A stretch of 5,017 bases of DNA from NCBI GenBank assembly GCA_016867055.1, contig VGKN01000134.1:1-5017 (forward strand), in the 5' to 3' direction. The DNA comes from Candidatus Omnitrophota bacterium. GTDB lineage: Bacteria > Omnitrophota > Koll11 > VGKN01. Below, piece by piece: positions 226 through 4,120 of this stretch (its first letter is position 1; each line of letters begins with the position of its first letter). Position numbers and translations under genes: made by a program. Under the pieces are notes generated by a model. The model was not told the origin of the DNA and made no database searches. It saw only the letters and a program-made list of their open reading frames with translations.

Positions 226-720
226 TTATGCTATGGCTTTAAACCTAAAAGAACCGATGGTTTTTATCCGTTTCAATAAATTAACCCTATCAAGGATCAA
301 AACGCCATTTAGGTGGTCTAACTCATGTTGAATTATCCTTGAAAGGAGTTCCCCAGCGTTTAGTTTAACCCTCTCGCCTTTTATATTCATTGCCTCCAAA
401 ACAATCTCATTATATCTTTTAACCTTCAGAGTTACGCCCGGAATACTCAGACATCCCTCTTCCATTATTAATCTTCCTTTTACAGATTTTATTCTGGGGT
501 TTAGAAGGACAACAGCGGGGTTTTCTTTTAATGGTTTAATAACGCTCAATTGAATGCTAAAACCCACCTGAGGTGCTGCAAGACCAACCCCACCTGCCTC
601 TTCTAAGGTTTCAATCATATCGGATACCAACCTTAATATCTCATCGGTAACCGTTGATATCCTCTTTGCCTTTTTTCTTAGAATAGGATCAGGATATTTT
701 CTTATATTCAAAATAGTCAT
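226..720 (-). CDS. def: Peptide deformylase (type I)
   Basis: This is a metalloenzyme that removes the formyl group from the N-terminal methionine of nascent proteins at the ribosome exit. All three family motifs are present in the 164-residue protein: GVGLAAPQ (residues 44-51), EGCLS (88-92) and QHELDH (131-136). Cys90, His132 and His136 are the expected metal ligands and Glu133 the catalytic acid, so the enzyme should be active. EGCLS and a short C-terminus (ending shortly after ILDRVNLLKR) fit type I bacterial deformylases, and the length is normal. The start gives the canonical N-terminus (ILxIRKYPDPILRKKA). It is probably the first gene of a def-fmt unit, because the next gene upstream lies on the other strand and a plausible promoter sits just before it. 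There is no good Shine-Dalgarno sequence; only an A-rich AAAAAGAT precedes the ATG. def and fmt act at opposite ends of the same formylation cycle. Confidence 0.97.
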   Translation of the reverse strand: MTILNIRKYPDPILRKKAKRISTVTDEILRLVSDMIETLEEAGGVGLAAPQVGFSIQLSVIKPLKENPAVVLLNPRIKSVKGRLIMEEGCLSIPGVTLKVKRYNEIVLEAMNIKGERVKLNAGELLSRIIQHELDHLNGVLILDRVNLLKRIKTIGSFRFKAIA

Positions 721-819: not shown

Positions 820-1440
820 ATGGTTAATGAGAAAAACACAAATATTTTAACAAACGATACCCCGAAAGAGATAAAGGACCTTTTTGATAAAGGCGTGTCC
901 GCCTTTAATAGAAAAAATTACGAATATGCTATTGAACTTTTCTCTCAGATTTTAAGATTAAAATTTGACTTTGCCGAAGCCCGCCATTATTTAAGACTTG
1001 CAGAGCAAAAATTCTTCAAAGAACACCCGCCCAAACTCCTGTCACGAATCCTGAATAGATTCTACTGTTTTTTCTATGGGTTAAGGGCTTCAATATTTTA
1101 TTTGCAAAACAATATCAAAAGGTCGGTAGATGAGTATGAGAAACTCCTGCGCAAAGAACCATTTGATGAAAAAGCGCTTTTAAAACTTGCTAGAATATTC
1201 CAAAAGATTAATGATGCAAATTCTGCACTAAGGTTATTTGAGGAGGTAGTTCAGTTAAAACCAAAGAATATAGAAGCTCTAAAAAGACTTGGAGAACTTT
1301 ATATAAAAACAGATGACCTACCAAGAGCAAGAAGTTGTTTTAATGCTGTTTTATCAATCTCACCGTATGATTTAGATGCTGAAAAATTCTTAAGAAATTT
1401 AGATGCTCTTGGTACCTTAAAGAAAAATTTCCATCAATAA
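820..1440 (+). CDS. Tetratricopeptide-repeat protein, function unknown
   Basis: This 206-residue protein is built mostly of TPR helix-turn-helix repeats, which usually mediate protein-protein contacts. I see one repeat at about residues 21-54 (pattern G.SAFNRKNYEYAIELFSQIL...A). Three contiguous 34-residue units follow at about 84-117, 118-151 and 152-185, the last two being textbook (ALLKLARIF...A..LFEEVVQLKP; ALKRLGELY...AR..FNAVLSISP). The two blocks are separated by a basic, aromatic-rich stretch (71-83, with a hydrophobic run continuing to about 95). There is no signal peptide, so it is probably cytoplasmic, though that stretch could touch a membrane. The ATG at 820 is the only sensible start: an in-frame stop lies at 781-783 with no ATG, GTG or TTG between. 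No Shine-Dalgarno sequence is correctly placed (AAGGA at 793-797 is too far upstream). It lies antisense between priA and def. No specific function can be assigned. Confidence 0.88.
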   Translation: MVNEKNTNILTNDTPKEIKDLFDKGVSAFNRKNYEYAIELFSQILRLKFDFAEARHYLRLAEQKFFKEHPPKLLSRILNRFYCFFYGLRASIFYLQNNIKRSVDEYEKLLRKEPFDEKALLKLARIFQKINDANSALRLFEEVVQLKPKNIEALKRLGELYIKTDDLPRARSCFNAVLSISPYDLDAEKFLRNLDALGTLKKNFHQ

Positions 1441-1445
1441 ATTTC

Positions 1446-3440
1446 CTATCTCGGGTCTATATCAATAGAGATGTACCTTCTTGACCTACAACCTATTTTT
1501 TTGAAAATTTGCTTTAGCGCATTACATACGTAATTGTTGTCCTTGGCCTTTAGGATTAATTCCCATATAAAATAGCCCCTGATTTTTTTTATACGATGGG
1601 GACTGGGGCCAAGGATTTCTAACTTTTTAGTAAATCCCTCTTTATCCAAAACCTCTTTAAGTAAAAAGGATATTCTTTTTGCAGTATCTTCTATTTTTGA
1701 TTTAATTGAGATACTCGTCAAATGGCAGAATGGCGGGTAGTATAAATCTCTACGAAGAGACAATTCCTTTCTATAAAAACCATTGTAATCCATTCTTTTG
1801 ATAGCCTTGATAAGATACAAATCGGGAAGGTAGGTTTGGATTACCAATCTTGCATCTGGATGGCTCATACCTTTACTCATTAAAATATGCATTAATGTAT
1901 TAAACATCTTCTCGGTTGATCTGAAATCCGGAAGGTTTAAAAAAGTATCTAAAGAAAGGATAGCTATAAGTCTTATATATTCCAACTCCAAAACCTTTAA
2001 GGCCATAGTCGTCCCTATCAAAACGTCTATCTCATTCTTTTCAAATTTATCAATTATCTTATCCAAACCGATTCTTCTTGAATAAGCGTCGCTGTCAAGC
2101 CTTTCTGTCTTAAGAACTGGAAACAATCTTGCAATCTCGCTTTCTACCTTCTCTGTCCCAAATCCCGCAAACTCAATATGATATTTTCCACATTCAGGGC
2201 AGATGTCGGGTGGTCTTATAGAAAAGTTACAAAAATGGCATATCAGCATTTTATTATCAAAATGATATACAAGGGGATTGTTGCAATTGCTACATTTAAC
2301 TATAAAACCACAACCAATGCAACGGCAATACGTGGAAAACCCGCGTCTATTCACAAAAATAACTACTTTATTTTTATTACCTGCGAGAAATACCCTCCCT
2401 ACCTCCTCCTGAAGCATTCTGGATAGAAACCTGTTTTTAGTCCTATAACCATACGAGTCTCTCATATCAACCACTTTTATTTTTGTAGAAACTATATCTG
2501 GTTTTTTATCCCTTGTCTTAAGTAAGATAAACTCTCCCTGCTTTGCCTTAAAATAGGATTCCACCCTTGGGGTAGGACTAGCCAAAATGACAATCGCATT
2601 GGAGAATTCTGAACGCTTTAAGGAAACATTTACTGCATCATAGCGGGGGGTTCTATCCTGTTTATATGCCCCCTGGTGCTCATCCTCAACTATTATTAAA
2701 CCCATTTTTTTAAATGGGCTGAAAATAGTCATACGAGTGCCCAGGGCAATTAACGCCTTACCCTCAATTATCCTTTTCCAATTTGAAAATTGTTCTCTCT
2801 CAGTTAAACCGCTGTGCAGAATGGATACAATATCTCCAAATGCATCTTGCAATATCTCTCTATATTCATTTACATATAGAATCTCAGGAACCAAAAAAAT
2901 ACAATTATTTCCTTTTGAAAGAACCTTAGAGATGCTACTTAGAAATATACCGAATTTTTCTTCTTTTGATTTATAATGAAGTAGAAAAATCTTGTTTTGA
3001 CATTTCTCTATTTGAAAGGAGAGGTTTTTTGGGAGGTTTTTTATTTTGCCTCTTGGAAAAGAAAAACCATAATTTGCGTTTGAGTTCTGCTCTTCAAAAC
3101 TAATCCTGACTTTTTTCTTGGTTAATAAACTTGGTAAGGCTGCCTTTATAGCCTCTGCTTGGGAACATAAATAATACTCTGATAGCCATTTCGTAAGTTT
3201 TAGCATATCAGCGTCTAAGACCGCAACATCATCAAGAACAGCCAAAATCTCCTTCAGTCTTTTAATGGGCGAACTATCCAATAGCCCCACAATAAAACCA
3301 ATTCGCTCCTTATTTCCAAAGGGAACCACAACCCTTTTCCCGATAGTCAATTTAGTCTTTATAGCATCAGGGATAATATAATGGAAAAAATCCTGTTTTG
3401 GAATGTCAATAGCCACCTCTGCAATGTTATACGCCTTCAT
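1446..3440 (-). CDS. priA: Primosomal protein N' (PriA), apparent pseudohelicase
   Basis: PriA recognises stalled replication forks and nucleates replisome reloading. The 664-residue protein has the 3'-DNA-end-binding domain (about 1-105) and helicase lobe landmarks: LVPEI (183-187), HSGLTERE (209-216), GTR..IFSPF (234-243), EDEH (252-255), SPTP..ES (288-295) and NRRG (364-367). A complete cysteine-rich zinc module has pairs C374/C377, C383/C386, C401/C404 and C414/C417. LNLPDFR (501-507) and a C-terminal domain (YPPF 568-571, LGPSP 610-614, ending IDIDPR) follow. Catalytic motifs are ruined: the Walker A position (156-163) reads YKSKEEKF instead of GVTGSGKT, the GHDF of motif V is VLEL, and the QVAGRAGR of motif VI is HILMSKGM (518-525). 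The winged-helix segment is nearly absent. Fork binding and protein loading look plausible; ATP-driven unwinding does not. The start overlaps the upstream glycosylase stop by 4 nt (ATGA), implying coupled translation. Family identity is certain; loss of activity is inferred. Confidence 0.95.
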   Translation of the reverse strand: MKAYNIAEVAIDIPKQDFFHYIIPDAIKTKLTIGKRVVVPFGNKERIGFIVGLLDSSPIKRLKEILAVLDDVAVLDADMLKLTKWLSEYYLCSQAEAIKAALPSLLTKKKVRISFEEQNSNANYGFSFPRGKIKNLPKNLSFQIEKCQNKIFLLHYKSKEEKFGIFLSSISKVLSKGNNCIFLVPEILYVNEYREILQDAFGDIVSILHSGLTEREQFSNWKRIIEGKALIALGTRMTIFSPFKKMGLIIVEDEHQGAYKQDRTPRYDAVNVSLKRSEFSNAIVILASPTPRVESYFKAKQGEFILLKTRDKKPDIVSTKIKVVDMRDSYGYRTKNRFLSRMLQEEVGRVFLAGNKNKVVIFVNRRGFSTYCRCIGCGFIVKCSNCNNPLVYHFDNKMLICHFCNFSIRPPDICPECGKYHIEFAGFGTEKVESEIARLFPVLKTERLDSDAYSRRIGLDKIIDKFEKNEIDVLIGTTMALKVLELEYIRLIAILSLDTFLNLPDFRSTEKMFNTLMHILMSKGMSHPDARLVIQTYLPDLYLIKAIKRMDYNGFYRKELSLRRDLYYPPFCHLTSISIKSKIEDTAKRISFLLKEVLDKEGFTKKLEILGPSPHRIKKIRGYFIWELILKAKDNNYVCNALKQIFKKIGCRSRRYISIDIDPR

Positions 3441-4120
3441 TTTTTTAAAAACTGTATAATTTTTTTCATATCTTCCCAGACAAGCTTTTTATCCCTTGGG
3501 TTTCTCAACAGATAAGCAGGATGGAATGTAGGTATTACCGTTATGTTATGATAGTCATAGAAACTCCCCCTTAATACACTTATCGGTTCTTCCCTTTTCA
3601 ATAGATTCCACGCCGCATACTTTCCAAGGGCACATATGAGTTTTGGTTTTATTATGTTGATTTGTTCTATCAAATATTCCTCGCAGGATGCAAGCTCCTC
3701 TTTGGAGGGGGGTCTGTTTAAGGGGGGTCTGCATTTCAGACAATTTGTGATATATACCTCCCTTCTTTCTAAGCCGAGGGAGTTCATTATCTTTGAAAGC
3801 AAAGCCCCGGCCTTTCCCACAAACGGCTCACCTGTCAAATCCTCTTCTTCGCCAGGCGCTTCTCCGATAAATAGTAATTGGGTGTTTATATTTCCCTTTC
3901 CAAACACCACATTTTTTCTGTGTCTATACAAGGTGCATCTTCTACAATTAGATACCCTTTTAGAAAGAAGTTCTAAGGGTTTTTCTTTGCTTGGATTATA
4001 ATTTATGAGCTCCTCATCCTTTTTATGATTTAAGAGGTACTCTCTACAGCCAAAACCTTCCTCAATCTCAAGATAACCCTTCAACTGGTCAACGATTTGT
4101 TTTAAATTATCGCGTTTCAT
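3437..4120 (-). CDS. udg: Uracil-DNA glycosylase, family 4 (4Fe-4S)
   Basis: This enzyme excises uracil from DNA as the first step of base excision repair. The 227-residue protein carries motif A GEAPGEEED (86-94), followed by TGEPFVGKAG with the likely uracil-stacking Phe100. It also has TNCLKCRPP (125-133), with Asn126 at the usual base-recognition position, and the HPAYLLR motif (200-206). Four cysteines, C59, C62, C130 and C146, have the C-x2-C-x67-C-x15-C spacing expected for the family's iron-sulfur cluster. The family core starts near residue 50; the first 45-50 residues are a charged extension of no recognised function. No other ATG in that region gives a better start. Such proteins are often mislabelled as phage SPO1 DNA polymerase-related. 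The gene begins 1 nt after the glycosyltransferase stop and overlaps priA by 4 nt, so the three are very probably cotranscribed. No clear ribosome binding site is visible. Confidence 0.94.
   Translation of the reverse strand: MKRDNLKQIVDQLKGYLEIEEGFGCREYLLNHKKDEELINYNPSKEKPLELLSKRVSNCRRCTLYRHRKNVVFGKGNINTQLLFIGEAPGEEEDLTGEPFVGKAGALLSKIMNSLGLERREVYITNCLKCRPPLNRPPSKEELASCEEYLIEQINIIKPKLICALGKYAAWNLLKREEPISVLRGSFYDYHNITVIPTFHPAYLLRNPRDKKLVWEDMKKIIQFLKK
3706..3731. repeat. Short direct repeat with two G6 runs inside the glycosylase gene
   Basis: The 11-base unit AGGGGGGTCTG occurs at 3706-3716 and again at 3721-3731, a 15-base period equal to five codons. On the coding strand it encodes the two RPP triplets of the conserved CRPPxNRxP segment. 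It is therefore explained largely by protein sequence plus repeated CCC proline codons, in a gene that is otherwise AT-rich. Confidence 0.6.

Follow-up and report, generated by a model that had tools for sequence, protein, structure and literature searches.

The priA locus and its gene product

The analysed stretch of DNA (the window) comprises 5,017 nucleotides of a Candidatus Omnitrophota bacterium contig and carries a gene for PriA, a protein by which stalled DNA replication is restarted. This priA gene is flanked by a gene for a family-4 uracil-DNA glycosylase on one side and by genes for a TPR protein and a peptide deformylase on the other (Table 1). The start of priA and the end of the glycosylase gene overlap by 4 bases (3437–3440), which suggests translational coupling. 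The window shows the same gene order as the genome G206 (locus L085/L106), namely an fmt-like gene, def, the TPR gene on the opposite strand, priA, the family-4 uracil-DNA glycosylase gene, and a glycosyltransferase gene. G206 is the only one of the 384 surveyed Omnitrophota genomes that belongs to the clade of the window PriA (see below), and it is also the only genome of its family and order in this set. The neighbour genes in G206 were named from reading their translations, and the identity of the fmt gene is putative in both loci. Comparison of the two priA genes over 642 codons yielded differences of 31%, 21%, and 60% at codon positions 1, 2, and 3, respectively, which is the pattern of a constrained gene.

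Table 1. Genes, domains, and motif sites in the window
Feature	Position	Strand	Remarks
Peptide deformylase gene (def)	226..720	-	TIGR00079; order matches L106
TPR protein gene between def and priA	820..1440	+	Opposite strand to both; position matches L106
priA, putatively ATPase-dead form	1446..3440	-	664 aa ORF, TIGR00595 match
PriA C-terminal domain (PriA_C, PF18074)	1452..1733	-	61.8 bits
Motif VI with arginine fingers	1863..1889	-	HILMSKGMS vs QVAGRAGRG
Motif V	1989..2015	-	GTTMALKVL vs GTQMIAKGL
Cysteine-rich zinc region (Zn_ribbon_PriA, PF18319)	2190..2321	-	8/8 Cys retained, C374-C417
Motif III	2568..2582	-	ASPTP vs GSATP
Aromatic-rich loop region (presumed)	2631..2675	-	Largely retained, YKQ..PRY
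Motif II (Walker B), residues 252-255	2676..2687	-	EDEH vs DEEH
Motif I (Walker A) site, residues 156-163	2952..2975	-	YKSKEEKF vs GxxxSGKT
Glutamine column of the Q motif (presumed), residue 133	3042..3044	-	Ile here; column alignment
3' DNA-binding domain (3'BD, PriA_3primeBD, PF17764)	3132..3419	-	96.3 bits
Family-4 uracil-DNA glycosylase gene	3437..4120	-	TIGR00758, 213.9 bits; comparable neighbour at L106

The whole window protein scored 424 bits against the PriA model TIGR00595 (cut-off 230.35), and the three domain models PF17764, PF18319, and PF18074 all matched over their gathering scores. The stricter PRK05580 models matched as well, with scores below their cut-offs, and the DEAD and Helicase_C Pfam models gave no match at E ≤ 0.001. 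Actinobacterial PriA is labelled helicase-defective in some databases. The window PriA is not of this type, since it reached at most 161.5 bits with the actinobacterial PRK14873 models compared to 543.8 bits with PRK05580.1-3 (NF004066), and its best match is thus not a PRK14873 model. PriA of M. tuberculosis is termed a helicase loader or a primosomal helicase in PMC5694481, whose passages on PriA make no mention of lost motifs.

The predicted structure of the window PriA aligned to PriA chain 8fak_H with a TM score of 0.84 at 27% identity, so that, as modelled, the PriA fold is retained despite the motif loss described below. Like canonical PriA (E. coli, Klebsiella; PDB 8fak, 6dcr, 4nl4), the protein has a 3'BD, two helicase lobes as judged by fold, the zinc region, and the C-terminal domain, but unlike canonical PriA it has no recognisable ATP site. 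The segment that separates the 3'BD from the Walker lysine site (2958–3131) is short in comparison to E. coli PriA, where the Walker lysine is K230: the 3'BD match ends at residue 103 and only about 59 residues then precede the Walker position. The intact relative P0007, with its Walker lysine at K169, is similarly short. Much of the winged-helix segment therefore seems to be absent from the window PriA.

Loss of ATP-site motifs in a six-member clade

The initial annotation had proposed that the Walker A loop of this PriA is replaced by YKSKEEKF between intact flanking landmarks and that Walker B reads EDEH. Both readings proved correct, with FLLH directly before the octapeptide and LVPEI at residues 183–187 after it. 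Among the best 120 of 1544 matches in a homologue search, six sequences (including the window PriA) had no P-loop and 114 had an intact one. Together with 17 homologues from a further search, the latter formed a reference set of 131 intact homologues. Within the matches listed, the P-loop GxxxSGKT occurs in 131/131 non-clade homologues and in none of the six, and DEEH occurs at motif II in all 131 as well, whereas the five relatives of the window PriA have DDEH, DEEE, or EDEE. These five proteins, which form a clade with the window PriA, are 48–58% identical and are encoded in full-length frames on other contigs. All six members are devoid of motifs I, III, V, and VI, including both motif VI arginines, and of the Q-motif glutamine, the column of which (we assume that it is the Q motif) holds Q in at least 95% of the 131 intact homologues and in 0/6 of the clade. 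All glycines of the P-loop and its Thr/Ser are gone in 6/6. Thus, the P-loop loss and the Walker B change stand as first described, but the damage is not confined to them, as Q, III, V, and VI are gone too. Motif II is the least damaged of the ATP-site motifs and is altered rather than lost: Asp252 is retained in 4/6, Glu253 in 1/6, Glu254 in 6/6, and His255 in 4/6 members. Invariant across the six proteins are E254, T477 of motif V, and K162, the lysine that had already been noticed at the Walker position. Residual nucleotide contact may occur through K162, E254, T477, and Asp252, the last of which is present in four of the six.

A GxxxxGK[ST] pattern was sought across the entire window PriA, and none was found; a loop restored elsewhere in the protein or intact loops in close relatives would have spoken against the initial annotation, but the close relatives share the loss. 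Misalignment or frameshift had been considered unlikely, and this view is upheld: motif I is missing from five further proteins on separate contigs and from 0/131 of the other homologues listed, so that the loss is not a matter of chance and hardly one of assembly error. A frameshift and a relocated P-loop were rejected as well. In the structure model, a 3-residue turn takes the place of the P-loop at the motif I site and is followed by a helix from residue 159, while in the model of the intact P0007 the helix begins at K169. Walker A GxxxxGK[ST], DEEH, and the motif VI arginines, the hallmarks of an active SF2 helicase, are not present in the window PriA. The protein does show the traits by which a PriA pseudohelicase is recognised in sequence, which are defective catalytic motifs next to retained DNA-binding modules.

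A total of 183 columns show at least 95% conservation in the 131 intact homologues. Loss throughout the clade affects 20/66 of these columns in helicase lobe 1, 1/9 in one part of lobe 2 and 21/59 in the other, and 1/1 in the linker, whereas the figures are 0/16 for the zinc region, 1/13 for the 3'BD, and 3/19 for the C-terminus. All six members retain 84/183 columns. The region that we take to be the aromatic-rich loop keeps 81% of its conserved columns in the clade. Judged from these alignments, most of the residues predicted to bind or hydrolyse ATP are gone, and the DNA-binding and zinc modules are retained. One clade member, P0005, has a 44-residue in-frame insertion before motif V, which is not present in its close relative P0004.

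Distribution, selection, and number of losses in Omnitrophota

The loss is not a peculiarity of the window copy; it is clade-wide and occurs in no fewer than 150 of the 319 Omnitrophota genomes with a PriA match. These 319 (match at E ≤ 1e-30) are part of a set of 384 genomes drawn from the phylum, and the 65 without a match stand outside the motif counts. The PriA ORF was read in 264/319 genomes (G206 and 263 others). Motif I was lost in 150 and intact in 105 of the 255 genomes in which it was readable (9 uncovered), and all 105 intact P-loop patterns sit at the expected site. Motif VI was lost in 152, intact in 105, and uncovered in 7 of the 264 genomes. Where both motifs were readable (248 genomes), both were lost in 145 and both retained in 103, without a single discordant case. 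One 'lost' call for motif VI, that of L135, comes from a truncated ORF whose motif VI is a nearly intact variant. Sampling was not random, since low and middle scorers were fetched almost completely, and the ratio of 150/255 is therefore inflated. About two thirds of the 55 unread genomes are high scorers, in which PriA is probably intact, and the rest are low scorers or fragments. Hence, 150/319 (47%) is a floor for the share of PriA-bearing Omnitrophota genomes with an ATPase-less PriA, as we call PriAs without these motifs. A high score does not guarantee a P-loop, as seen in G292 (L333), which matched at E 4.5e-165 without the motif. L333 has a near P-loop GPEGSGKM, YEEG at motif II, and no motif VI, and possibly represents an intermediate or a separate loss.

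A profile built from nine ATPase-less proteins of the main group gave 3431 matches, the best 120 of which are all without a P-loop; an organism is named for a minority of these 120, and in all those cases it is Omnitrophota/Omnitrophica. In P0202, a hit to the P-loop pattern falls outside the motif I site. In a contig profile scan, the best 80 of 529 confirmed relatives all had a P-loop (80/80), and none came from the window's clade.

The 149 other ATPase-less PriAs keep 82% of the consensus columns in the 3'BD, 81% in the zinc region (each Cys 93–94%), 74% in the aromatic-rich loop, 67% in the C-terminus, and 65% in motif II, compared to 43% in motif III, 33% in Ia, 20% in V, 16% in I, and 11% each in the Q motif and VI. 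That motif II still stands at 65% and the C-terminal domain at no more than 67% counts against the scaffold reading proposed below. The Walker lysine is retained in only 6% of them. Eight of the 149 (L146, L148, L149, L153, L154, L185, L187, and L267) have neither an ATP site nor a zinc region (no CxxC pair) and are, with frames of 531–585 aa, the most eroded forms seen. L285 (G005) and L302 (G037) have an intact P-loop and motif VI together with an incomplete cysteine set (two CxxC pairs each), and the PriA match of L210 (G322) contains one internal TGA.

Selection was assessed by dN/dS in 23 independent pairs (60–99% identical) from ATPase-less lineages other than the window's clade and in 23 intact pairs. 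The median was 0.134 (maximum 0.269) in the ATPase-less pairs and 0.127 (maximum 0.325) in the intact pairs. Median pN/pS in the intact pairs was 0.163 for the helicase core versus 0.307 for the DNA-binding and C-terminal parts; the corresponding values in the ATPase-less pairs were 0.237 and 0.228. Given the near-equal pN/pS and the low dN/dS, the ATPase-less PriAs are kept under purifying selection, and their helicase core no longer shows the additional constraint that it has in intact PriAs.

The number of losses depends on the columns used and appears to lie between one and about six. Parsimony over 290 rows gave 1 change with all columns, 3 without the motif columns, and 5 without the helicase columns, and 6 changes resulted from the protein ends only (283 rows). 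An earlier sample of 305 rows had given 1 and 3 changes. A careful tree computed for a subset of 69 rows out of the 290 implied 4 losses. It places the window's clade and the main ATPase-less group as sisters, which is unsure in view of several long branches and a support of only 87/84. A single-clade constraint on this tree had a p-AU of 0.239 (0.253 without L333), so that one origin was not rejected.

Proposed role of the window PriA and alternative explanations

PriA helicase motifs are well conserved, with Deinococcus-Thermus as the named exception, where the GKT lysine is replaced by arginine and motifs I and II are poor (PMC4504706). PriA of D. radiodurans has no measurable ATPase or helicase activity and binds fork DNA as well as DnaB (PMC4504706). 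The initial annotation had cited Deinococcus PriA as a precedent for a pseudohelicase; the precedent is real and fits the kind of protein, but not the lesion. Both proteins retain DNA-binding parts and have defective motifs I and II. In contrast to Deinococcus PriA, which was compared by its published description, the window PriA does not show the GKT to GRT exchange but YKSKEEKF, it has lost the P-loop glycines as well as Q, III, V, and VI, and it comes from another phylum, which also holds intact relatives. In E. coli, the ATPase-dead PriA variant K230R (priA300) is reported to support replication restart all the same (PMC7326373). That variant is a single laboratory substitution, whereas the window PriA presents a natural wholesale motif loss. 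Among the titles and abstract openings listed in literature searches on PriA and on Omnitrophota, in which subscription journals were thinly covered, none reports motif loss in Omnitrophota PriA, so that this absence is a weak one.

The reading as a purely structural loader that has lost ATP binding, as proposed in the initial annotation, is supported as the best one for the window PriA. Probably, the protein is an ATPase-dead pseudohelicase that serves as a fork-binding scaffold and recruits DnaB. The 3'BD, the aromatic-rich loop, and the zinc region would still recognise fork and D-loop DNA, and DnaB would be recruited via DciA or directly, whereby the putative DnaB/DciA partnership is based on the presence of the genes in one genome, G206, which also encodes RecG, Mfd, UvrB, and DnaA. 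Replication would then restart without unwinding of the lagging strand by PriA, and other helicases would have to clear the lagging arm where needed. Omnitrophota with an ATPase-less PriA probably restart replication using PriA solely as a landing platform. For the wider proposal, in which about half of the Omnitrophota restart without a PriA motor, by means of an ATP-independent and in some cases zinc-less platform that arose either a single time at an early stage or several times and with DciA-type loading of DnaB, the chances seem evenly balanced.

Instead of loading DnaB, PriA could have been repurposed for the binding of branched DNA, either in fork protection or as an SSB or repair scaffold. 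The E. coli PriA zinc region is linked to primosome assembly, and it would be in line with such a change that this region is missing from 8/149 other ATPase-less PriAs and that the helicase core is, in relative terms, less constrained. However, the window's clade retains the zinc region and the C-terminal domain, the window and G206 have their gene order in common, and G206 has a single priA, so that we consider repurposing unlikely. It might also be that K162 and E254 form part of a rebuilt, non-canonical nucleotide site with a still active ATPase, as the invariance of these two residues and T477 in the six proteins and the presence of Asp252 in four of them would allow. This is very improbable in view of the Q glutamine, P-loop glycines, Thr/Ser, and motif VI arginines that are lost in 6/6, the first motif II Glu that is changed in 5/6, the 3-residue turn modelled without a P-loop, and the rarity of the Walker lysine in the other ATPase-less PriAs.

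A second, intact PriA elsewhere in the genome could supply the helicase work, and it has to be considered that the copy count comes from G206 and not from the window's own genome. Yet only one PriA over the family cut-off was found in G206, the lesser hits to the PriA model being RecG, Mfd, and UvrB, and second matches per genome are mostly pieces of the same ORF, which makes such a copy extremely improbable. The metagenomic-type sources and the insertion in P0005 might point to gene decay or to an artefact of assembly, an explanation that is barely credible, since six full-length proteins on separate contigs have lost an identical set of motifs, the codon-position pattern relative to G206 is that of a constrained gene, and other ATPase-less PriAs are under purifying selection.

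E. coli tolerates the loss of PriA helicase activity, which, given the good conservation of the motifs, raises the question of its value outside the laboratory. If the wider proposal is true, motor loss on the scale of a phylum would show that unwinding by PriA is dispensable in nature. The occurrence of intact and ATPase-less PriA among relatives offers a natural experiment on the purpose of the motor and on the partner that takes its place. The data also suggest that the helicase annotation is wrong for many Omnitrophota priA genes.

In E. coli, recG defects are reported to be suppressed by PriA without helicase activity (PMC4752480, PMC7326373), and for this reason RecG was compared between 80 ATPase-less and 80 intact genomes picked from the 150 and 105, respectively. 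RecG was over the cut-off in 67/80 and 66/80 and is not differentially lost, although its importance might be expected to fall when PriA is unable to unwind; the idea of RecG loss in ATPase-less genomes was thus rejected. Genome size in the same 80 and 80 genomes did not differ with the PriA state either (median 1.6 Mb for ATPase-less vs 1.7 Mb for intact, p 0.30). A search of G206 for a DnaC/DnaI loader with PF01695 gave three hits of about 20 bits, below the cut-off, and the candidate with the best hit (34.8 bits) turned out to be DnaA. The Mfd of G206 (L108) has 639 aa and is thus smaller than the Mfd models, which span 907 and 1148 positions, and ORFs near 639 aa recur as second hits to the RecG model in many Omnitrophota genomes.
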